Translations under genes and position numbers: made by a program
The notes under the pieces: generated by a model
The model's input: the letters and a program-made list of their open reading frames with translations, nothing else
Databases searched by the model: none
What the model was told of the DNA's origin: nothing
In this document: piece by piece, positions 127-33,513 of the stretch
How positions within the stretch are numbered: position 1 is the first letter of the stretch
Layout of the letters: each line of letters opens with the position of its first letter
NCBI GenBank assembly: GCA_029547025.1
Contig: JAKPQA010000350.1
Coordinates: 1 to 53,284, forward strand
From: Armatimonadota bacterium
GTDB taxonomy: Bacteria > Armatimonadota > Zipacnadia > UBA1398 > JAKPQA01
Reading direction: 5' to 3'
Length of the DNA stretch: 53,284 nucleotides

Positions 127-1872
127 TTACTGTCTCACGTAGACCCTGTACTGGTAGGTGATGTCGCGGGCTTGCTGGGGCTCGACGGTGAGGTCCCACA
201 CGAGCTCGGTGGTCGGGTTGGCGAAGGTCAGCTTGCGGGCGACCTTTCGGGCCTGGGGCTCTGTGTCCGCCCGGATCAACTCGCCCTGAAGTTCCCGCCG
301 GGCGCTAAGCCGGACGGCCTCGGATTTATGGTTGGACACGTGTAGCTTGCCTTCCACCGTCACCAGGTCGTAGTGGACGCCGTGGACCGCCATGGCGTCG
401 CGCTGCCGTGTGGTCTCGCTCTCGGCGCTCTCGGCCAGTATGTCGGGGGCCACCGTCGTTTTCAGGTCGACCTTGGCGCCCGCGGGCGTGTACCGGAGCA
501 GGTCCTGCCCGACGGGCTTGCTCTCGACCATCGCCAGCGCGGGCCCCGTGGTCCAGGGCACGTCACTCTGGTTCGTCAGCCTCAATGCATGCCAGACGCG
601 GCTCGCCGCGAGCTGTGCCGCGAGCTCCTCGGGCGAGAGCCGTTCGGTGGGCCTAGCGGCATCCTCGCGGTAGTCGAGCACGCCCTGCAGGATGTCCCAC
701 AGGTAGACGTCCTCGCACGGGACCTGCATGTCGAGCAGCGAGAACGTCCCGCGGGCGCCCTTGGCCATGGTCACGTGGTCGATGCGGTAGAAGAACAGCT
801 CGTCGGCCCCGGCCCCTGACACGTCGGTGGCCTCGAGGGCGCTGTCGTCGAGCGGGTTGTAGACGGCGCCCTCGCCGCCCATCATGCCGCCGCCCATCGC
901 TGACTGCGTCATCATGGCGTTCGAGTAGGCGTCACGCCGGCGCCCGTCCTGCGGTGCCATCTGGGCGAAGTAGGACGACAAGCCTGTCCACGCTGTTTCA
1001 AGTGATAGGGGCGATACCACATCCTGCTGGATGAAGTTGGGCACGCCCACGGCGAAGTGGACGGTCGTATCGGCCAGCGCAACGGCCTCGTTGATGAACG
1101 TGGCGTGCAGCCGCAGACGGACGGCCCCGTCGCCGCCGCGATGCACCGCGTAGGTCGGGATCCAGCGGATTCCCTTGGCCATGTAGCCCATTCCGAAGGA
1201 CACGTCGCCGGACACGGGCTCGTCGCCGCGCAGCAGGTGGGCCGAGAGCTTCTTCTGCCGAGATGGCCGGGCGAACTCCTTGGGGGGCTCGTTGCCGAAC
1301 TGGACGGTGGAGACGGTTCCCACCGAGACCGTCGTTGTCTCCTGGCCCGATTGAACGACGAGGTGGGTCACCGGTCCGCCCGGGGCCACAGGGACTGGGC
1401 CGTAGCCGTAGCGGTAGGCGTACTCCGGTCGCACCAGCGAGGGGACGGGGTCATTCGGGCTCGTCGCCGGCGGCAGGGCCGGCAACACGGCCACCAAGGT
1501 GCCCTCGACCGCCTTGCCGTCGGTCAGTCGGACCTTGACCTCAGAGCCGACATTGGCGCGCAACAGGTCCTCATAGGTCTGAACGGCCGCCGACTCGGTG
1601 CCCTGGTTCTCCTCCGTCATCGCGCGGTCGACCCGGACGCCCTCGTCGGTCGAATAGAGCCAGAAGGTGCCGAGCGAGGCCTGGGGGACTTGGCCGGTGG
1701 TGATCCAGCCGTCGGTCGCCCTAGTGCGCCCCTCGGACAGCACGAACCCGTAGCCGTGCTTGTAGGCCACGAGCTGCACCGGTGCCGCCAGGCCGTTGGC
1801 CTGGGCAGCCGTGCTTGAGGGCCCGACCGCCATCAGGGCCCACAGCATCACGCCGCATGCACTCCTGCGCAT
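127..1872 (-). CDS. secreted DUF4139-like protein with short Met-Gly tract
   Basis: The function is not known. From the chosen ATG (1872), preceded by a GAGAGGAA ribosome site at 1881-1888, the protein has 581 residues and begins with a signal peptide (MRRSACGVMLWALMAVG, Ala-rich to about residue 25). A longer ORF starts upstream at 1941 but has no signal or ribosome site. Residues about 208-280 contain 'GYMAKGIRWIPTYAV', which resembles the DUF4139 (mucoidy-inhibitor-A-like) domain, where a similar 'Y.A.G..W.P.Y' segment is typical. Around residues 105-130 a 'VRLTDGKAVEGTL' stretch resembles a small beta-barrel. Residues about 325-335 carry 'SAMGGGMMGGEG', a short form of the Met-Gly tract that dominates the 14-21 kb cluster. 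The gene is divergent from the S55 protease. It probably acts in the periplasm or on the surface; the family assignment is moderately sure. Confidence 0.7.
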   Translation of the reverse strand: MRRSACGVMLWALMAVGPSSTAAQANGLAAPVQLVAYKHGYGFVLSEGRTRATDGWITTGQVPQASLGTFWLYSTDEGVRVDRAMTEENQGTESAAVQTYEDLLRANVGSEVKVRLTDGKAVEGTLVAVLPALPPATSPNDPVPSLVRPEYAYRYGYGPVPVAPGGPVTHLVVQSGQETTTVSVGTVSTVQFGNEPPKEFARPSRQKKLSAHLLRGDEPVSGDVSFGMGYMAKGIRWIPTYAVHRGGDGAVRLRLHATFINEAVALADTTVHFAVGVPNFIQQDVVSPLSLETAWTGLSSYFAQMAPQDGRRRDAYSNAMMTQSAMGGGMMGGEGAVYNPLDDSALEATDVSGAGADELFFYRIDHVTMAKGARGTFSLLDMQVPCEDVYLWDILQGVLDYREDAARPTERLSPEELAAQLAASRVWHALRLTNQSDVPWTTGPALAMVESKPVGQDLLRYTPAGAKVDLKTTVAPDILAESAESETTRQRDAMAVHGVHYDLVTVEGKLHVSNHKSEAVRLSARRELQGELIRADTEPQARKVARKLTFANPTTELVWDLTVEPQQARDITYQYRVYVRQ

Positions 1873-1965
1873 CGTCTTACTTCCTCTCGCCGAGATGCCA
1901 TCGGGGCCCGAGCGGGCGTCCGACCCGCTGTAGCCCGGCACGGCTTCTGCCGCTACACTGTTCGA

Positions 1966-4570: not shown

Positions 4571-5338
4571 CGAACACCCGGGGATACTCGAGACGCCACC
4601 GTGCCGGCGGCCGTCCTCGGTCGCCACGGCAAAGGCGCGGGCCAGGAGGCCTGCAGGCACGAACACCCGGGGGTACCGGGTACGCCACCGTGCCGGCGGC
4701 CGTCCTCGGCCGCCACGGCAAGAGCGCGGGCCAGGAGGCCCGCAGGCACGAACACCCGGGGATACTCGAGACGCCACCGTGCCGGCGGCGGTCCTCGGCC
4801 GCCACGGCAAAGGCGCGGGCCAGGAGGTTCGCAGGCACCGGCACCCGGGGATACTCGAGACGCCACCGTGCCGGCGGCCGTCCTCGGCCGCCACGGCAAA
4901 GGCGCGGGCCAGGAGGCCCGCAGGCACGAACACCCGGGGATACTCGAGACGCCACCGTGCCGGCGGCCGTCCTCGGCCGCCACGGCAGAGACGCGGGCCG
5001 GGAGGCCCGCAGGCACGAACACCCGGGGATACTCGAGACGCCACCGTGCCGGCGGCCGTCCTCGGCCGCCACGGCAAGAGGGCGGGCCGGGAGGCCCGCA
5101 GGCACGAACACCCGGGGATGCTCGAGACGCCACCGTGCCGGCGGCCGTCCTCGGCCGCCACGGCAAAGGCGCGGGCCAGGAGGCCCGCAGGCACGAACAC
5201 CCGGCGGCACCCGAGACGCCACCGTACCGGCGGCCGTCCTCGGCCGCCACGGCAAAGGCGCGGGCCAGGAGGCCCGCAGGCACGAACACCCGGGGATACT
5301 CGAGACGCCGCCGTGCCGGCGGCCGTCCTCGGCCGCCA
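4571..5338. repeat. direct array of nine 89-bp two-hairpin repeats
   Basis: The anchor GCCACCGTGCC (or a one-base variant) starts at 4595, 4684, 4773, 4862, 4951, 5040, 5129, 5218 and 5307, giving an exact 89-bp period over nine units, the last cut at about 5338. Each unit holds two hairpins: GGCGGCCG-TCCT-CGGCCGCC and GCGGGCC-AGGA-GGCCCGC. Their loops, TCCT and AGGA, are complementary; in units where the second loop is GGGA a G-U pair would keep this. The period is not a multiple of three, so the long ORFs in all frames across it are not genes. The RAYT transposase follows immediately. There are no spacers, so this is not CRISPR. Confidence 0.97.
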
Positions 5339-5949: not shown

Positions 5950-6068
5950 ACGCACGAACACCCGGGGATACTCGAGACGCCACCGTGCCGGCGGCCGTCC
6001 TCGGCCGCCACGGCAAAGGCGCGGGCCGGGAGGCCCGCAGGCACGAACACCCGGGGATACCCGAGGCG
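5950..6068. repeat. 89-bp repeat, about 1.3 units downstream of the RAYT
   Basis: The same unit as at 4571-5338 in the same orientation, with anchors at 5979 and 6068 (89 bp apart). It starts a few bases after the RAYT stop and ends about 30 bases before the glutaredoxin start, so the RAYT is flanked on both sides by its putative repeat substrate. Confidence 0.95.
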
Positions 6069-6099
6069 CCAGCGCAAAGCCTTGCGGGGAGAGACGGAC

Positions 6100-13941: not shown

Positions 13942-14895
13942 CTAGCGCCGACCGCCCATCATGCCAGGGCCCATCATCCCCGGCCCGCTGCCCATTCGGC
14001 CCCCCCCGGGGCCGGTGCCCCCCATGGGGCCCATGGCGCCAGGGCCGCCCGAGCCACCGGCCGCGCCCATCATGCCCGGACCGCCGCCCATCATGCCGGG
14101 GCCCATCATTCCGCCCATCATGCCGCCCTGGCCGGCCGCCGTGCCGCCAGAGCCGAGGTGGGCCTGCTGGAAGATGCGCCGGGTTCTGGACTGGTCAGTC
14201 GGCGGTGAGGATGGCGCCGACCGGTAGAACCACTTGTGGGTCCCGTAGTAGGGCGAGGTCAGCTCTGTTGGCGTCCCGGACTGCATCCGTTGGCGCTCTT
14301 GGGTCAGCCATGCGGCGATGGCAGCGTATTGGGTTGCTGTGGCCTGGTCGCCGTTGCCCAAGGCCTCGGCCTGGCGGGCGCATGCCTCGGCGATCTGGGC
14401 CGAGTAGACCTCCTGGGCGTTGGCGCGGGCCGTGGCGATGTAGTCATCCTGCCGTAGGCGTTCGCGGTAGATGGACGGCACACTGGCCATGGCCTGGGCG
14501 CCCAGGCGGCTCAGCTCGGCTTCCATGGCGGATCGAGTGCCCTCACGGTTGATGTAGATCGGCGCCGGAGGGATGCCGGTGGTGCCGCCCGATACGCGGT
14601 AGTCCGACCCCTCCTCGGTCTTGACTTCGGTCCCCGAAGGTGGCGCCGCGCCTCCGGGCGCGGGCGCTGCGGCCGATAGGCCACCCATCGGTGGCATGGC
14701 CCCGCCGGCGGCACCGGGAGGCATTTGCGCGTGGATCGTCCCCGAGGGCGCGAACGCCACGTAGGCCGCCAAGCCCAGGGCAAGCACCACGATCGCCAGA
14801 CCGGCGATATTCAGCCCGTTGCGCACGATCTCAGCAACTCCCTTCGCTCCCGAGCCGCCCGAGGCCACGGGGACAGCCCGGCTAGCGTAGACCAC
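13942..14895 (-). CDS. Met-Gly-tract protein 1: single-pass membrane protein with MG-rich tail
   Basis: Unrecognised, 317 residues. A single membrane segment (residues about 29-48, 'NIAGLAIVVLALGLAAYVAF') is followed by a Gly/Pro/Met-rich linker, a middle domain of about 130 polar and Ala-rich residues (about 105-235, helical, 'INREGTRSAMEAELSRLGAQ') and a C-terminal tail of about 65 residues dominated by Met and Gly ('GGMMGGMMGPGMMGGG'). It is the last of five consecutive same-strand genes with such tracts. It probably sits in the inner membrane with the tail outside or in the periplasm. The GTG start at 14895 lacks a clear ribosome site and could be a few codons later. Confidence 0.8.
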   Translation of the reverse strand: MVYASRAVPVASGGSGAKGVAEIVRNGLNIAGLAIVVLALGLAAYVAFAPSGTIHAQMPPGAAGGAMPPMGGLSAAAPAPGGAAPPSGTEVKTEEGSDYRVSGGTTGIPPAPIYINREGTRSAMEAELSRLGAQAMASVPSIYRERLRQDDYIATARANAQEVYSAQIAEACARQAEALGNGDQATATQYAAIAAWLTQERQRMQSGTPTELTSPYYGTHKWFYRSAPSSPPTDQSRTRRIFQQAHLGSGGTAAGQGGMMGGMMGPGMMGGGPGMMGAAGGSGGPGAMGPMGGTGPGGGRMGSGPGMMGPGMMGGRR

Positions 14896-14919
14896 GGATG
14901 CGGCGTGCGGCCCGGGGGC

Positions 14920-15747
14920 CTACCGCGAGAGATCCTCCGGCGATGGTGGCCGGTAGTACGGCCTCTGGACCGCTGGGGCCGCCGACGGACCCATCACATA
15001 GATCACCGTCAGGTCCTGCCGCTCCTCTTCGACACGACTCGCCCAGCGCGTGTCGTCGGGCTTCAGGCGGGTGGTGCGGCGGACTGCCGCCTCGGCGCTG
15101 CGGAGTATGTCTGCCTTCACCGAGTCCGGCAGGTTCTCGCCGAGGGCCAGCCCCTTCTGCACCGCTTTGGCGTGGATTCGCCGCACTTCGGCCCGATAGT
15201 GTGTGCTCTCCCAGTCGCCGGGCGACAGCCGCGCTGCCGCCCCAGACGCCACCTGTCGCAGGCTCGATGGCGACAACCGCCGCTCCATTCGTGCTTCGAT
15301 GGCACGTGTCGCCCCCGCGAACCGTGGCAGCTCCCTGGATTCGATCTGGTAGCGAATGGCCCTCGTGGACCCGGGGCGCAGCTGGCCCAGCGTGGGGTCG
15401 GTGAGTGCTGCGTGGCGCAGTGCCGCGTCGGCCAGCTCGGCGTGCAGTGGCTTCCATCGCTCATGAGAGGCCACGGACCATTCCAGCAGGGCCAGCTCCT
15501 CTTCGGAGAGCGGTCCCGGCTCGGTCGCCGGAGTGCTGGGCGCGGGGGCAGCCGGCGCGGCCGCGCCGCCACCCATCCCCCCCATGCCACCCATGCTGCC
15601 CATCATGCCGGGGGCGCCGCTGCCCATCATACCCGGCCCCATGGGGCTGGAGCCCTGGGCAGAAACCAGGTAGGGTCTCCCGACCAGGCAGACAAGGCCG
15701 AACAGGCCCAGTGCCACCGCTCCTGTTGCGATCCACAGTCTTCGCAT
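14920..15747 (-). CDS. Met-Gly-tract protein 2: secreted or anchored helical protein
   Basis: Unrecognised, 275 residues. It begins with a hydrophobic N-terminus ('MRRLWIATGAVALGLFGLVC') that is a signal peptide or anchor, directly followed by a Met-Gly tract ('MGPGMMGSGAPGMMGSMGG', about residues 36-62). The remainder (about 80-275) is charged and helical, with no motif I know. Here the tract is near the N-terminus, unlike protein 1 where it is the tail. The ATG at 15747 is preferred over the TTG at 15762 on ribosome-site grounds (GGTGG at about 8 bases). It lies 24 bases upstream of protein 1, so the two are very likely co-transcribed. Confidence 0.8.
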   Translation of the reverse strand: MRRLWIATGAVALGLFGLVCLVGRPYLVSAQGSSPMGPGMMGSGAPGMMGSMGGMGGMGGGAAAPAAPAPSTPATEPGPLSEEELALLEWSVASHERWKPLHAELADAALRHAALTDPTLGQLRPGSTRAIRYQIESRELPRFAGATRAIEARMERRLSPSSLRQVASGAAARLSPGDWESTHYRAEVRRIHAKAVQKGLALGENLPDSVKADILRSAEAAVRRTTRLKPDDTRWASRVEEERQDLTVIYVMGPSAAPAVQRPYYRPPSPEDLSR

Positions 15748-15798
15748 AGGCCACCGTTCCAATGCCAGTTCCCGGTTCGTGCGGGAGACTCTGTGCGC

Positions 15799-18030
15799 CT
15801 AGAACTCGCGCATCCTCGGGCTGACCATGTTCTCGATCTCCGGGTCGAAATCGGCGAATGTGCAGCAGCGGAAACCGCGGGCGCCGCCGCCCGTGACCGT
15901 GGCAGACACCGTGTTGGTTTCGTCCCGGAGCGCGAAGGCGCCGCACGCGGCGTCGGGTCCCGAAGACAGCCACGACCCGCCCCGCGTGTCGAAATCGACA
16001 GAGCCCGGCCGCGTGGTTACGCCGGAGCCCCAATGGCTCGTGTCATACAGAAGTCGGTGCTGAGTGAGCATTTCGCGGTAGGCGTCCGGACCGCTCGTGA
16101 TGTTGAACACGACGTCCGCCTCGACCCACTCGGCCAGGTTGCCGCTCATGTCATAGGCGCCGAAGCTGCTCACGCATTCGGGGAAGGCTCCGCTCTTGGC
16201 GATGCCGCCGCCGCGCGGGTTATCGGCCGTGTTGCACTTCGAGGGGTCGTACTGGTTGCCGTATGGGAACAGCCACGAGGCGGGTCCCGAGCACGCGGCA
16301 ACCCACTCGGTCGCGGAGCACAGGCGCTTGCCCTTGGCTGCGCACAGACTTCGGGCCTGCTCTAGCGTGGCCGCCACCGGCGTGGCGCCGGGGAAGTTGG
16401 GGTACTCGTACTTGTCGATGCAGAAGTTCATCCCACTGACCGCGTCCCACTGGAGGACGTAGTCAGTGAACGTGTCATCGAGTGGGTTGGACTTTCGTTT
16501 CCCCTCCGCGTCATAGGCCGTGATGAAACCGGGTCCGCCGCCGCCGCCGGCAGCGCCGCCGCCCATCATACCCGGCCCCATCATACCCGGACCGCCGCCC
16601 ATCATACCGGGGCCACTGCCCCTCATCGCTGCCGGCGGAGCGGAGGACCCCGCTCCCGGTCCCTGCATCACGCCGGCGGGAGCGCCCTGCATTCCGCCGC
16701 TGGCGGGGCCGCCTTCCGGCGTCATCCCGCCGCCCATCATGCCCGGCCCGCCCGCCGATGTGCCCGACCCCGTGCCAAAGAGCAGAGGGCTCCCCTGGTT
16801 GACGCGCTTCGCCTCGCTCGACCGGCTCAGGTGGGTGGCCACGACCGACGCCGCCTTGTCCAGTTTCAGCACAGTCCCACCCGCGTCGACGATGACGGCG
16901 GCACGCCGGCCGTACGGGTCGATCCCGTCGGGGCGCCAAGCGGGATCGCGGACGACGGTGTTCGGGGTTCCCTCATCGTGCGGCTGAGAAAATGCGTACT
17001 CGCCGGGCGCATTGCTCCTCTGAGGCACCCACACCATGCCGTCGGGGCACTTAGGCCGATCCGTGAGCAGGTCCGTTGTCTTGAATGCGGCCAGAGCAGT
17101 CCCGCCCGGAGGCACAAACACGACGCGCTGCCCGACGACTTTGACCTTGTCGGGCTGGCGCACGGCCCTGACCTCAACGATGTGCGAGCCTGCGATGACC
17201 CCCTGGACGCGGCTGGGAGTCGAGTCGCTGACCAGCACATCGTCCACGCGAACACTGACGTTCTCAGCGGTGAGGTCCGCGCTGATCAGGATGGTGCCCA
17301 GGTGCTCGCCGCCACGCAGCGAGACCGTTGTGGTCTCGCCCGCCCGAACGGTCACCATGTCACGGTAGGGCACGGGAGTCAGGCCCAGTATGATCTCGTG
17401 CTCGCCCGGCTGTATGTTGGTGAGGTGAAAGGGAGCCGTTCCCTCTATGGGCCGGCCGCTCAGCTGCCCCCACTGGATGGGCAGGTCGCTGGTGATCTCG
17501 ATGGTCCCGGCATGCTGCTTGGCGGCGATGTCGACGATGGCTGGCTCGCCCTTGGTGACGCCGAACTCTCTGGTGACCCGGAGCCACGGGCCGCTCAGCG
17601 TGACCACATGGCGGCCGATGGCCAGGTCCTGACGTTCGAAGGGGGTGTCGGCCGACACGGTGCCCGCGGCCTCACCGTCCAGCGTGATGGCGGCCCCGAC
17701 CAGATCGGACCGAAGCAGGAGGCTGCCCCGGGCTGGCTTGAGCTCGAAAGCCACCGAGGCCAGCTCCTGGGCCTTCACCTCGATGCTGTCCTGCGAGGCA
17801 TCGAGGTACTGATCGCTGCGCACTTCGACGCGGTACTTGCCGGGCGTCAGGTTCTCGAGCGTCAGCGGAGTCTTGCCCACGAGTTTGCCGTTGACGAACA
17901 AGTCCTGTCCGCTGGGTTTGGAGGTGACGAAGAGCGCCCCCGACTCGAGACTCCATGCGGGGAGCATAGACGTCGCGAGGAGCACCGCGATGGCGACCCA
18001 GTAGGTCCGGCCGCTGCCTGTCGACTTCAT
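15799..18030 (-). CDS. Met-Gly-tract protein 3: PEGA repeats plus FGE-like (SUMF1) domain
   Basis: A 743-residue exported protein. The signal peptide ends near residue 27. Four PEGA-like beta repeats follow (about 31-310; the first has 'KLVGKTPLTLENLTPGKYRV'), then a spacer, a Met-Gly tract (about 430-510, 'GPGMMGGGPGMMGPGMMGGG') and a formylglycine-generating-enzyme-like C-type-lectin fold (about 530-725: 'CIDKYEYPNFPGATPV', 'GKRLCSATEWVAAC', 'YDMSGNLAEWVEADV', 'GARGFRCC'). In true FGE two Cys act in the segment after 'RGGS'; here that segment reads 'RGGSWLSSGPDAACGAF', with only one Cys, so enzyme activity is doubtful and a binding role more likely. PEGA domains often bind peptidoglycan or surface glycans. 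The ATG has GGAGGAAG about 7 bases upstream. Confidence 0.88.
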   Translation of the reverse strand: MKSTGSGRTYWVAIAVLLATSMLPAWSLESGALFVTSKPSGQDLFVNGKLVGKTPLTLENLTPGKYRVEVRSDQYLDASQDSIEVKAQELASVAFELKPARGSLLLRSDLVGAAITLDGEAAGTVSADTPFERQDLAIGRHVVTLSGPWLRVTREFGVTKGEPAIVDIAAKQHAGTIEITSDLPIQWGQLSGRPIEGTAPFHLTNIQPGEHEIILGLTPVPYRDMVTVRAGETTTVSLRGGEHLGTILISADLTAENVSVRVDDVLVSDSTPSRVQGVIAGSHIVEVRAVRQPDKVKVVGQRVVFVPPGGTALAAFKTTDLLTDRPKCPDGMVWVPQRSNAPGEYAFSQPHDEGTPNTVVRDPAWRPDGIDPYGRRAAVIVDAGGTVLKLDKAASVVATHLSRSSEAKRVNQGSPLLFGTGSGTSAGGPGMMGGGMTPEGGPASGGMQGAPAGVMQGPGAGSSAPPAAMRGSGPGMMGGGPGMMGPGMMGGGAAGGGGGPGFITAYDAEGKRKSNPLDDTFTDYVLQWDAVSGMNFCIDKYEYPNFPGATPVAATLEQARSLCAAKGKRLCSATEWVAACSGPASWLFPYGNQYDPSKCNTADNPRGGGIAKSGAFPECVSSFGAYDMSGNLAEWVEADVVFNITSGPDAYREMLTQHRLLYDTSHWGSGVTTRPGSVDFDTRGGSWLSSGPDAACGAFALRDETNTVSATVTGGGARGFRCCTFADFDPEIENMVSPRMREF

Positions 18031-18138
18031 GACGTCACTTCCTCCAGCTCAACGCGCCCGCCGGTGGTGACCGTCCACCCCGGCGGGATTACCCGGTGTG
18101 GCTCTGGCCTGTGGCCAGGTCCCGCCGAACACTCGCGC

Positions 18139-20217
18139 CTACATGGCTCCGCCCGGCGCCGAGGCCGTCGACCCGCCGCCGCCACTACCTGGGGCAGAGC
18201 CGCCGCCAGCCGGTCCCATCATTCCGCCGCGCGGTCCCATCATCCCCGGGCCACTTCCGCCTGCGGGGCCGGGGCCCATCATGCCCGGGCCGCTGCCCAT
18301 CATGCCAGGCCCCATCATCCCGCCGCCGGCCGGCATGCCCGCGGCAGCGGTGGTGCCGCCACCGCCCGACCCGCTGGGGTCGATGCACTCACGGCAGGCT
18401 TCCAGGTTCCAGCGGTAGAGGTCGCTGCTGCCCTGCAGGGTCACCGCCTGCTGAAAGGCGGCCTCGGCCGAGAAGTACTGCCGATTGCGCATGTAGGCCA
18501 TGCCCAGGTCGTTCCAGGCGGCCGCCGAGCCCGAGTTCGCCATGACGGCCTGTTCGAGGACCGCGACGGCCGTTTCGAGGTTCCCCTTGGCATTCCGAGG
18601 ATCCACGCTACCGTGGACCGCCGACTGGGCATCCGCCCCGGCGGCGATGTGGGCCAGCCCCAGGTTCCCGAGCACCATGGCGCGGGCCTGCTGGGCTTTG
18701 GTGTGGTCATCGACGGTGGCTGCCGGGTCGCGCTGTTCGAGGAGCACCAACCGGTCGGCGAGCTTGGCCGCGGCCCTCTGGTGTTCCAGGGCATCCTGGA
18801 AGCGGCCTTCGGCCTGATAGATGGCGCCGAGGTTACTCAGCGCGGCACAGCCGGCCGCCAGGGTGCGGCGCTGACGGGCACGGAACTGGCTGTAGCGGAA
18901 AACCTTCTTGTCGGCGTCGGCCACGAGCTGGGCGTCCGCTTTCTCGATCAGAGGCAGCATGGCTTTGAACTCGCTCTCGGCGGCCTGGGTCTTGCCCATG
19001 CGCATCCACGTCACGCCGAGGTAGTTGTGGGCCACGAGGTGGGCTTCGAGGGTATCGACGAAGGTGTCTTCCGGGTCGATCAGCAGGCTCTGCCGCAGGG
19101 CCTCGATTGCCGAGCGGTATTCACCGAGGCGGCAGTAGACGAGGCCCAGGTTCGCCCAGGCCACAGCCGAGCCGGGTGCCGGCGCGAAGGCACCAGTGGC
19201 TCCCGGCATGGAGACCTGTCCCGTCAGCCACTCGAGCCGGCGCACGGCATGGCCGTCATGGCCGAGGAGGATCTCGACTTGGGCCAAGTGAGCCATCGAT
19301 TCCCGGTGGGGCACGGCGAGCCCGGGTTCCTGAACGACACGAAGCAGCGTGGTCCGGGCCTCCTCGAACTGGCCGGACTCCATCTGAACCACCGCGAGGG
19401 CATCGAAGGCGAAGGGCAGGATATTGGTAGCGAGCCAAGCCTGTTCGGGAGGTGGGAGGTCGTCCCACTCGGCCATGCGCTGCCCGCGGGCGCCGCCGGC
19501 TTGCTGGCCGCCCATCATGCCACCCATGCCCCCCCCCATCATGGGTCCGCCACTGCCGCCGCCCATCATCATGGGCCCGCCGCCCATCATCTGGCGGCTC
19601 ATGGTGCCGGCGGCCATGGGGCCACCACTACCGGCCATACCCGGGCGGCCGGCGCCCATTGGGCCGCCCATCATTCCACCCATCATGCCCCCGGCGCCGC
19701 CTGTGCCCCCGGGAAGCGCGGCGTCCGACGGGCAAGGCAGGGTCGCCAGCGCTTCCCTGAGGACCGCCTCGGCGTCGACGAGCTGGTCGCGCTTGCGGTA
19801 CTCCTCGTGCATCAGGTAATAGGCCTGCCACACCTTGGTGTAGAGGTCACTGCGGAGGTCAAGGTCGAGGATCTTAGCCTGGATCTTGGGGCCACTGGGT
19901 TTGGCTTGGGCGCCACCGCCCATGGGGCCGCCCATCATGCCGCCCATCATGCCGCCCTGGCCACCCTGCTCTTCCTCGAGTTCGAGAATGGCGAAGGCTT
20001 TGAGGTACTGAGTCAGGGCGTACTGCAGCTGCTCGACGGGCTTGTTGGGGTCGGGCTCCTTGTCCTCCTGCTGGCCCATGCCACCCATCATGCCCCCGCC
20101 GCTACCGCCACCCATCATCATGGGGCCACCCATCATCTGGGCGAACGCCGGCGCCGCCAATGCGGCCATGGCGCCGCCGAGGAGGAGCCAGCGGATTGTG
20201 TGCCGGGTCATCGACAT
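18139..20217 (-). CDS. Met-Gly-tract protein 4: secreted TPR protein with three MG blocks
   Basis: A 692-residue exported protein. After a signal peptide ('WLLLGGAMAALAAPAFAQ') come three Met-Gly blocks: at the mature N-terminus ('MMGGPMMMGGGSGGGMMGG'), around residues 90-105 and at about 180-255. The core (about 260-620) is TPR-like helical repeats ('AWANLGLVYCRLGEYRSAIE', 'AWNDLGMAYMRNRQYFSAE'). A fourth tract forms the C-terminus, ending PGGAM. TPRs suggest a scaffold for protein-protein contacts in the periplasm or outside. The ATG at 20217 or 20211 starts the signal peptide; the ORF opens at 20259 without support. Its place between proteins 3 and 5 with gaps of about 110 and 65 bases suggests one operon. 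Confidence 0.87.
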   Translation of the reverse strand: MSMTRHTIRWLLLGGAMAALAAPAFAQMMGGPMMMGGGSGGGMMGGMGQQEDKEPDPNKPVEQLQYALTQYLKAFAILELEEEQGGQGGMMGGMMGGPMGGGAQAKPSGPKIQAKILDLDLRSDLYTKVWQAYYLMHEEYRKRDQLVDAEAVLREALATLPCPSDAALPGGTGGAGGMMGGMMGGPMGAGRPGMAGSGGPMAAGTMSRQMMGGGPMMMGGGSGGPMMGGGMGGMMGGQQAGGARGQRMAEWDDLPPPEQAWLATNILPFAFDALAVVQMESGQFEEARTTLLRVVQEPGLAVPHRESMAHLAQVEILLGHDGHAVRRLEWLTGQVSMPGATGAFAPAPGSAVAWANLGLVYCRLGEYRSAIEALRQSLLIDPEDTFVDTLEAHLVAHNYLGVTWMRMGKTQAAESEFKAMLPLIEKADAQLVADADKKVFRYSQFRARQRRTLAAGCAALSNLGAIYQAEGRFQDALEHQRAAAKLADRLVLLEQRDPAATVDDHTKAQQARAMVLGNLGLAHIAAGADAQSAVHGSVDPRNAKGNLETAVAVLEQAVMANSGSAAAWNDLGMAYMRNRQYFSAEAAFQQAVTLQGSSDLYRWNLEACRECIDPSGSGGGGTTAAAGMPAGGGMMGPGMMGSGPGMMGPGPAGGSGPGMMGPRGGMMGPAGGGSAPGSGGGGSTASAPGGAM

Positions 20218-20280
20218 CTCTGTGGACCGTTCCCTTCCCTGTGGCGTGAACAGCACCACGCGAGAGCGGTTCTGCCGAAC

Positions 20281-21129
20281 CTACATCGCGCCCCCTGGGC
20301 CGCCCGCCACTGAGCCGCCGCCACCGCCGCCGCCGCCCATCATGCCACCCATCATACCGCCCATCATCCCACTGCCCATCATGCCGCCCATCATGCCGCC
20401 CTGGCCCTGTGAGGTGGTCCACGGGTCGAGGAACGTCTCGGGCGAGGCCATCAGGCCCTGAGCGATGGCCAACCAGGCATTGCCGAGGCCGCGCAGGGCA
20501 CGACAGTGGATTTTCCGCGCTTCGAGCAGCAGCTTCTGGTTCTCGGGGGCCAGATCGTGGGCGATGAGCCCGCCGCCCCCCATACCGCCGCCCATCATGC
20601 CGCCACCCATCATGGCGCCGCCACCCGGCATCATTCCGCCGCCGGACCCGGCGGCGCCCCCGGCCATGGCCCCAGCGCCCATCATCCCAGGCATGGCGCC
20701 GCCACCCATGCCGCCACCGGGACCCGCCTGCGACTTCGACGACGTGCCGCGGACCTCGTCCATCTTCTCCTTGGCCTGCTTGTAGGCATCGCGGGCGGCC
20801 TGGAGGTTGCCGTCCTCCATTTGCTTGTCGGCTTTCTCGAGCAACGCGAGGGCCTCGTTCATGAGCCGGCGGGCCTTCTTGGGGTCGGCCGTCTGCTGCA
20901 TGCCGGCGCCCATCATGCCGCCCATACCGCCCATCATCATCCCGCCGCCCGAGCCGCCCATCATCATGGGGTTGATGCCACCGCCACCAGGGCCACGCAT
21001 CAGGCCGCCGCCGGCGGAGCCCCCCGCGGCGGCGCCGCCCCCTTGGTTCGGCACAAGCTGCGCCCAGGCGGTTCCGCCCAGCATGAGTGCCAGGCCCACT
21101 GCGGCGCAGAACATCACTCTCGAACGCAT
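20281..21129 (-). CDS. Met-Gly-tract protein 5: secreted, small helical hairpin among MG tracts
   Basis: A 282-residue exported protein, the first gene of the cluster. It has a signal peptide ('MFCAAVGLALMLGGTAWAQ') and a Met-Gly tract to about residue 77. A charged helical hairpin follows (about 81-128, 'KARRLMNEALALLEKADKQM'), resembling a single TPR or coiled coil. After a second MG tract (about 138-185) comes a short helical segment ('ENQKLLLEARKIHCRALRGL') and a third MG tract. It ends PGGAM like protein 4. Over half of the protein is low-complexity Gly/Met/Ala. No enzyme motif. The ATG at 21129 follows GGTGGAG. A structured leader lies upstream. Confidence 0.85.
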   Translation of the reverse strand: MRSRVMFCAAVGLALMLGGTAWAQLVPNQGGGAAAGGSAGGGLMRGPGGGGINPMMMGGSGGGMMMGGMGGMMGAGMQQTADPKKARRLMNEALALLEKADKQMEDGNLQAARDAYKQAKEKMDEVRGTSSKSQAGPGGGMGGGAMPGMMGAGAMAGGAAGSGGGMMPGGGAMMGGGMMGGGMGGGGLIAHDLAPENQKLLLEARKIHCRALRGLGNAWLAIAQGLMASPETFLDPWTTSQGQGGMMGGMMGSGMMGGMMGGMMGGGGGGGGSVAGGPGGAM

Positions 21130-32462: not shown

Positions 32463-33188
32463 CTATCGCAGGTCGTACAGGCGGTCGTCGGGCGACAAGT
32501 CGGCGATGTAGGGATCGTTCGGGCTCACGTTCGACTTGCTCGAGAGCGCCTTGGCGTGGCCGTCGCAGAAGGCGACGTTGGCCGTACCGTTGTGGCGGAA
32601 GTGTACGTTGGGGCCAATCCACGAGTAGAACGGATCCTGCGGCGCGCGCAGGTAGTTGGTCGCCGCCACGCCAACGGGATTGTAGGTGCTCCAGTAGGCC
32701 GCATCGCAGAACAGCACGGTCTCGCTCGGCGATTGGATCGAGCTCAGCGGCGCCGGCCGGATGCCTGACATGGGGTCGCCGCCAATGTAGCTCACATTGT
32801 AGGCATATCCGGTGTAGGGACGCCCCCATGTCTCTGCGTGGAACGACGGACACTGGTTGATCTGGTTGTTCTTCGTGTAGGAGCCCAATAGGCCCAGGTT
32901 CGCGCTGCCCGCGCCGTAATCGACGATGAAGTCCCACGCATACTCGACCATGAAGTCGGCCGAGTAGTAGTACGAGAGGCAGGCGGTCTCGTCATAGTCT
33001 TGGGCGTACATCTGCCAGGCGAGTGCGAGCTGACGGACGTTCGAGGCACAGCTGGCCTGCCGCGCCTTCTCCCGAGCTTTGGCGAAAACGGGGAACAGGA
33101 TCGCGGCCAGGATCGCGATGATGGCGATGACGACGAGTAGTTCGATGAGCGTGAAGCCTCTTTGGCGGTCGGTGACGCGTCGGAGCAC
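32463..33188 (-). CDS. type II/IV pseudopilin with H-X9-DG domain (DUF1559-like)
   Basis: A 241-residue protein with a class III (prepilin) signal: '[20 protein letters not shown]', cleaved after Gly11, leaving Phe12 as mature residue 1 and Glu16 as the mature Glu5. The helix runs on into '[16 protein letters not shown]' and 'MYAQDYDE'. The C-terminal H-X9-DG motif is '[16 protein letters not shown]' (His199 to Asp209-Gly210). Such proteins are exported by type II/IV-pilus-like machinery; their roles are mostly unknown, with ligand binding or cell-surface display suggested. The GTG at 33188 is chosen because AGAGGA lies at 33198-33203; reading further upstream would enter the leader. The leader holds a cobalamin riboswitch and a competing hairpin, so expression should respond to B12. 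Confidence 0.93.
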
Positions 33189-33198
33189 GGAAGCCCAT

Positions 33199-33262
33199 CC
33201 TCTCGGAGACGACAAGAGGGGCGCACCCGTTGCGTGCCCCGACCGCAATGGGTGGCCCCTCT
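33199..33262 (-). promoter_or_regulatory. likely expression platform: competing pairings of CCTCT with the ribosome site
   Basis: On the minus strand the arm 33262-33244 pairs with 33234-33215 over about 19 bases (AGAGGGGC... with ...GCCCCTCT). The same CCTCT at 33219-33215 can instead pair with AGAGG at 33203-33199, which is the ribosome site of the pseudopilin gene. The two pairings exclude each other, so a switch that changes the upstream stem would expose or hide the ribosome site. Which state B12 favours cannot be told. Confidence 0.6.
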
Positions 33263-33329
33263 GAGTAACGCGGATGTGGCAGCCAAACAAACGGCCGCTC
33301 CCCTTCCCACGAAGGAGCGCTGGCTGACC

Positions 33330-33513
33330 GCCGGCGTGGTCGTCTCCTGGCTCCCGGATCGCCCTACTCCCCGCGCCTTCCCAGGACCACCAACGGTCCC
33401 AGTGGCGTTCCGTGCGGGGGTTCGTCCCCGGTTACAGTTGCGGGGCAGCGACGGCATCGCACCGTCTTCCGGATGGCGCAACCCGCAGGGCCGCACCACC
33501 GTGCCACGCCGGC
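33330..33513 (-). ncRNA. cobalamin (AdoCbl-type) riboswitch
   Basis: On the minus strand all hallmarks are in order. The P1 5' arm GCCGGCGTGG (33513-33504) pairs perfectly with CCACGCCGGC (33339-33330). Between them are GGAAGACGGTGCGATGCCG, then GCTGCCCCGCAACTGTAA (core at 33445-33432), GGGGACGAACC, GCCACTGG (33406-33399), GGGAAGGCGCGGGGAG (33382-33367) and the B12 box AGCCAGGAGACGACC (33351-33338 in its core). This is a textbook Cbl riboswitch aptamer. It controls transcripts running left, so its direct target is the pseudopilin gene and possibly the GH36-like gene beyond. No B12 synthesis or uptake gene is next to it. Confidence 0.96.

Follow-up and report, generated by a model that had tools for sequence, protein, structure and literature searches.

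Met-Gly-rich tracts shared by the exported products of a five-gene cluster in Armatimonadota, and their possible role in an envelope assembly

Why would five neighbouring genes whose products differ in fold all carry the same kind of low-complexity tract? The question is raised by a locus in a 53,284-nucleotide stretch of DNA (hereafter the window, meaning the whole stretch that was analysed) from the 6.3 Mb genome of an Armatimonadota bacterium (G000). This genome is a draft with an estimated contamination of 4.8%, although its placement in the order is backed by orthologues from the same order. Five consecutive minus-strand open reading frames, P5, P4, P3, P2 and P1, were confirmed between positions 13942 and 21129 (Table 1). 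Because they share a strand and are separated by gaps of only about 21–108 bp, they likely form an operon, and we infer that they are co-transcribed. Pfam searches assigned P4 to TPR and P3 to PEGA plus FGE-like families, and gave no family for P1, P2 and P5. A hydrophobic N-terminal segment was present in each, in agreement with the original prediction that all five have a signal peptide or an N-terminal membrane segment. The open reading frames, Pfam matches and tract scan also agreed with its description of five exported or anchored proteins with different folds and with tracts in each: three tracts were found in P5, four in P4, two in P3, one in P2, and one long C-terminal plus one weak N-terminal tract in P1. 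Methionine accounted for 14.5% of P5 and 8.4% of P4.

Table 1. Positions of the five clustered genes, their Met-Gly tracts and one further tract in the window.
Feature	Position	Strand	Basis
P5, first operon gene: exported, 282 aa, three Met-Gly tracts with a short helical hairpin core lying between them	20281..21129	-	ORF, tract scan, orthologues
P5 tracts	20881-21009, 20551-20736, 20299-20424	-	tract scan
P4: exported TPR protein, 706 aa	18139..20259	-	Pfam TPR, orthologues in G001 and G002
P4 tracts	20053-20154, 19891-19983, 19474-19725, 18178-18360	-	tract scan
P3: exported, Ig-like/PEGA tandem, tract stretch, FGE/SUMF-like domain	15799..18030	-	Pfam, AF2 model, fold search
P3 tracts	16654-16779, 16525-16638	-	tract scan
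P2: exported helical protein	14920..15762	-	tract scan, orthologues, low-confidence G001 model
P2 tract	15544-15660	-	tract scan
P1: membrane-anchored protein with C-terminal tract	13942..14895	-	tract scan, syntenic G001 counterpart
P1 tracts	13945-14160 (C-terminal), 14680-14724 (weak)	-	tract scan
Short tract AMMTQSAMGGGMMGGEGA, residues 340-364 of a sixth exported protein, outside the operon	tract 850..924; gene 127-1941	-	tract scan

Genome-wide counts in G000 were obtained as matches to a strict DNA pattern for MMG..GMMG, ATGATGGGN{1,10}GGNATGATGGG, which favours ATGATG-type tracts. Seventeen of the 20 matches in the 6.3 Mb genome fell inside the five-gene cluster of approximately 7 kb, and the reversed pattern gave 0 matches. 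The strict pattern was carried by four of the five cluster genes and by two other G000 genes (p ~2e-12, with 5500 genes assumed); this concentration is far beyond chance. A sixth exported protein of the window also contained a short tract. Elsewhere in the window, at positions 4571-5338, a GC-rich unit of 89 bp that contains a palindrome is repeated in tandem (8.6 copies, 92% matches); further copies lie at 1-105 and 5955-6074, and other G000 contigs (C183, C177, C116 and others) carry the unit too.

The AF2 model of P3 comprised an N-terminal Ig-like/PEGA rod of good confidence (residues 31-316), followed by a low-confidence stretch without structure (residues 318-534) that holds both tracts and is presumably disordered, and then by a poorly modelled FGE-like domain. 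A fold search returned generic Ig-like rods (pilins, adhesins), which are informative as a fold class only. The SUMF fold domain matched PF03781 (E=1e-10), the best solved relative being SUMF2 (E=5e-11). With regard to the catalytic cysteine pair of FGE, the alignments end before the catalytic C-terminal part, and the conserved region after RGGSW contains one invariant cysteine, as judged by eye. P3 resembles SUMF1/SUMF2 and PEGA proteins in these domains, whereas their combination with an Ig-like rod and a Met-Gly tract was found in this order only among 291 phylum genomes. The structure models of the tracts and of P2, the latter made for the G001 orthologue, were of low confidence; the P2 model was helical and too poor to use.

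The order was sampled by three genomes, namely G000, G001 (UBA1398) and G002 (Armatimonadia bacterium Bin_177), the latter two also Armatimonadota. A search for neighbouring genes with Met-Gly tracts, as the original prediction had proposed, returned the same five-gene set in both other genomes: the order P5-P4-P3-P2-P1 is kept on one contig in G001, and in G002 a short contig carries P4-P3-P2 and a second contig carries P5, with contig ends truncating P5 and P4 and P1 not covered. Tracts were present in all 14 proteins recovered from the three genomes, so that tract-free homologues in the same operon order, named beforehand as evidence against a common tag, were absent among them. Core identity between orthologues was about 36-38% (37-38% for the P4 orthologues in G001 and G002). 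P3 had no match at E<=1e-40 in the other 288 Armatimonadota (present in 3 of 291 phylum genomes), and the five-gene cluster appears to be specific to this order. A single-sequence search of 101 genomes with the P1 core returned only P1 itself; its syntenic counterpart in G001 (locus L070, 3132-3896), found by gene order, carries a tract and a lipobox-like LSGC motif and is probably a lipoprotein.

The positions of the tracts were conserved to varying degrees. The G001 orthologue of P5 (L070, 9458-10375) has all three tracts and the truncated G002 copy (L072) two. In P4, the N-terminal and middle tracts occupy a common position and the C-terminal tract occurs in G000 only. The tracts of P3 precede the FGE-like domain in G000, whereas the G001 and G002 orthologues have them within this domain and C-terminally. 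The P2 orthologues have an additional C-terminal tract, with positions partly common and partly moved. Since tract positions differ among orthologues, the presence of tracts, not their exact place, appears to have been kept.

Are such tracts private to this operon? Our survey of Armatimonadota genomes indicated that they are not, as they are widespread on exported proteins of the phylum; the tag may also occur outside it. The 178 tracts in the phylum sample consisted of 42% Gly, 23% Met and 9.9% Pro, with 4.8% charged residues, a composition skewed towards Met pairs because the pattern search favours ATGATG-type tracts. They were about 15-120 residues long and occurred at any position in the protein. 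An N-terminal hydrophobic segment was found in 80 of 93 tract-bearing open reading frames under a lenient rule, and 11 of the 13 without such a segment were cut at the 5' end. The 89 tract proteins fell into 35 homology groups, the larger of which included an Ig-like protein of ~600 aa (14 genomes), a 'QLAGIRLG' protein (11 genomes, including G000 on contig C54) and pilus-type groups (STN/secretin-type, 7; PilN, 6; PilO, 5; PilP-position protein, 5). Beta-propellers and Ig-like proteins were also among the carriers, and tracts recurred at set places in PilN, PilO, the PilP-position protein and STN proteins. Two adjacent exported PD40 beta-propeller-type proteins are both tagged at conserved positions in a further family of the class (G014, G041 and G042; loci L074, 7028-9924, L075 and L076). 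The strict pattern was also found in at least 120 viral contigs, nearly all with one match each. In the literature that was searched, no account of Met-Gly tracts from this phylum was found.

The most informative parallel to the cluster was found in the operon of the type IV pilus PilMNOP(Q) alignment complex, whose periplasmic parts (PilN, PilO, PilP-position and STN proteins) in Armatimonadota can likewise be tagged across the whole operon, although many pilus orthologues have no tracts and the tracts are an addition. Regions downstream of PilM were compared in 39 genomes from 22 families under a loose rule (G+M >=8 and M >=2 per 15 residues), with the matrix scored by hand; PilM and secretin were certain by Pfam, whereas PilN, PilO and PilP were identified by their place in the gene order and by the INLLP motif, their HMM matches being weak. 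Tracts occurred in 54% of PilN, 51% of PilO, 39% of PilP-position and 68% of STN proteins, and all four were tagged in 10 of the 39 operons. PilN and PilO were tagged together in 18 operons and untagged together in 16, with five discordant (odds ratio 48, p=3e-6; median p=0.0015 with one genome per family), although this co-variation could be due partly to shared ancestry, given only 22 families. Tracts at the PilP position co-varied with those in PilN and in PilO (p=0.0009 each), and those in PilN and STN proteins showed no association across the 39 operons (p=1). GC bias was tested as a cause of the pilus tracts and did not explain them, the PilN-PilO effect holding in both GC halves. Because PilN and PilO co-vary and PilMNOP is a known physical subcomplex in Pseudomonas (PMC5805733), the tag appears to track partnership in the pilus machine, the only tagged one with known partners. 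In G098, four consecutive pilus genes are tagged, as in the five-gene cluster. G000 has one other locus rich in tracts, its own pilus operon (PilM-N-O-STN-secretin) on the separate contig C262, with three tracts in PilN and one in PilO. None of P1-P5 had a Pfam match to PilM, PilN, PilO, PilP or secretin, and no gene family was common to the cluster and the pilus machine. In the window, a cobalamin riboswitch (RF00174, 86.9 bits; 33342-33470, minus strand) lies directly upstream of a minus-strand gene (32463-33290) whose product starts like a type IV prepilin, an unusual kind of gene for control by a B12 riboswitch.

What could the tracts do? The reading we favour, tentatively and at close to an even balance, is that the five products are subunits of one periplasmic or trans-envelope assembly in which the tracts serve as cohesive and elastic tethers. 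Each subunit would bear a disordered, uncharged Gly-Met tract, in which glycine would make the chain extended and flexible, perhaps with a polyproline-II-like conformation such as that of GroEL tails and abductin, while methionine would provide flexible hydrophobic contacts. Tract-bearing subunits could then associate while tolerating movement or force, and the folded parts (the Ig-like/PEGA rod, FGE-like domain, TPR scaffold and helical proteins) would confer specificity. What can be read directly from the sequences is the cluster, its export signals, tracts in all members recovered from three genomes, selection at the level of the protein and not of the DNA, and recurrence across the phylum including the PilN-PilO co-variation. 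Mutual binding of the five products, and a role of the tracts as glue with elastic or polyproline-II behaviour, we infer by analogy.

A close analogy is the (GGM)n C-terminal tail of GroEL, which is Gly/Met-rich, uncharged, conserved in composition and disordered in crystals; the composition of the 178 tracts is of the same low-complexity type. These Gly/Met tails sample polyproline-II conformations and are similar to abductin (PMC12571646); both hydrophobicity and flexibility of the tail matter for function (PMC11978752). These findings support a cohesive or elastic reading of the present tracts without proving it. However, GroEL is a single cytosolic chaperonin with a tail of ~20 residues, whereas the tracts are richer in Met pairs and Pro and occur at any position in many unrelated exported proteins; in the cluster they are found on exported PEGA/FGE, TPR and helical proteins, not as the C-terminal tail of a chaperonin. 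Abductin, the elastomer of the scallop hinge, is likewise Gly/Met-rich, secreted and disordered or polyproline-II-like. This animal protein follows the consensus GGFGGMGGGX, in which Phe is present, is cross-linked through tyrosine and contains very little Pro (PMC13052691), features from which the tracts depart (Phe 0.9%, Tyr 0.5%, Pro 9.9%). The Met-rich low-complexity domain of Pbp1/ataxin-2 self-associates (PMC8394241), as is proposed for the tracts, but it belongs to a cytosolic eukaryotic protein in which redox switching has been shown, whereas the tracts are on exported proteins, for which such switching is a candidate role.

A serious rival to cohesive tethers is that the tracts are passive linkers, Gly-Met disordered spacers that were tolerated or drifted in exported proteins and separate domains without any cohesive role. 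Gly-rich disordered segments are often plain linkers. The tracts lie at termini and between domains, and they shift or vanish among orthologues (P3, P2 and the C-terminus of P4), which passive linkers predict equally well and which counts against cohesion; the tract region of P3 also lacked structure in the AF2 model. Although Gly-rich low-complexity regions are common in bacteria, methionine is as a rule depleted in the low-complexity regions of prokaryotes (PMC6821194), whereas it reaches ~23% here, in tracts that were found with a Met-based pattern. A leucine version of the motif occurred in 12 of 151 genomes compared with 66 of 151 for methionine, and the gathering of 17 of 20 G000 matches in one operon also speaks against passive linkers, which account neither for the Met enrichment nor for the PilN-PilO co-variation. 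We regard them as less likely than cohesive tethers, though deserving to be taken seriously.

A role in methionine oxidation is possible but rather improbable. Clusters of surface methionines could soak up oxidants in the periplasm or serve as a reversible switch, with oxidation loosening the assembly and an exported methionine sulfoxide reductase repairing it. In all three operon genomes (G000, contig C320, L134; G001 and G002, L135 and L136), the only MsrA match is a fusion of MsrB and MsrA whose N-terminus resembles a signal peptide or that of a lipoprotein, and which is apparently exported. Pbp1 of yeast offers a Met-rich low-complexity domain with a known redox switch (PMC8394241), and E. 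coli is known to repair methionine in its periplasm (PMC9302797, PMC12503329). Nevertheless, an association between MsrA and the tract pattern, tested across 151 genomes, was absent (odds ratio 1.03, p=1), no MsrA match was obtained in several tract-rich genomes (G042, G071), and no redox-repair genes adjoin the operon.

The original prediction had offered co-assembly and the binding of soft metals as physical properties that a shared tract might confer. Co-assembly stands as the best reading, in line with the PilN-PilO co-variation, whereas sequestration of Cu(I)/Ag(I) by tract methionines found no support and is very improbable. Met-rich periplasmic copper proteins such as CusF exist (PMC9302797), and two tract proteins of the phylum match metal-resistance-type Pfam families (Metal_resist, LTXXQ). 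However, His and Cys each make up ~0.1% of the tracts, so that His/Cys-supported Met sites are not apparent, copper and silver genes were absent beside the operon of both G000 and G001, and pilus assembly subunits, beta-propellers and Ig-like proteins carry tracts as well.

Finally, the tracts were examined at the level of DNA. Across 212 distinct motif matches at the Armatimonadota loci sampled, the paired ATGATG units were invariably in phase, their spacing being a multiple of three, compared with an expectation of 4 of the 10 permitted spacings. All 152 matches within same-strand called genes were in the Met-Gly frame; for the other 60, the simple gene caller had picked the opposite strand or no open reading frame. 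Among identical six-residue words in the cluster, third codon positions agreed at 0.486, compared with 0.472 expected from codon usage; because this agreement is no higher than codon usage predicts, synonymous sites are randomised. Judged by these patterns, selection acts on the protein and not on the DNA, and the kept phase together with the tracts in three genomes bears out the tag as a shared trait of the proteins. A DNA repeat (e.g., ATGATGGGC) spreading into genes without protein selection, the origin that had been named as fatal to a common tag, is hardly credible: within the tracts a tandem-repeat finder did detect short arrays of 12-39 bp, but the unbroken phase, the lack of any other frame in called same-strand genes, the randomised synonymous positions in the cluster and the exported nature of the carriers all contradict it.

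Beyond the cluster, it is possible, though less likely than the tethering role proposed for the five proteins, that a phylum-wide 'Velcro' operates, in which envelope machines, among them the alignment complex of the type IV pilus and an unrelated complex of five proteins from one order, are held together or kept elastic through a Gly-Met tag gained and lost jointly in partners. Shared low-complexity repeats hold some eukaryotic complexes together, as in the FG-nucleoporins, and such a tag, if true, would be their bacterial periplasmic counterpart. The Gly-Met tail as a kind of sequence is already known from GroEL and abductin; to our knowledge, a tag that is common to all genes of an operon and co-varies between partner subunits has no precedent. 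The tag also raises the question of why the easily oxidised methionine is used outside the cytoplasm. Should the tags mediate assembly, Met-Gly tracts would mark out those periplasmic proteins that act in concert in a phylum that has received little study, and low-complexity co-assembly would extend to the bacterial envelope, with PilN and PilO as parts of a well-understood machine.
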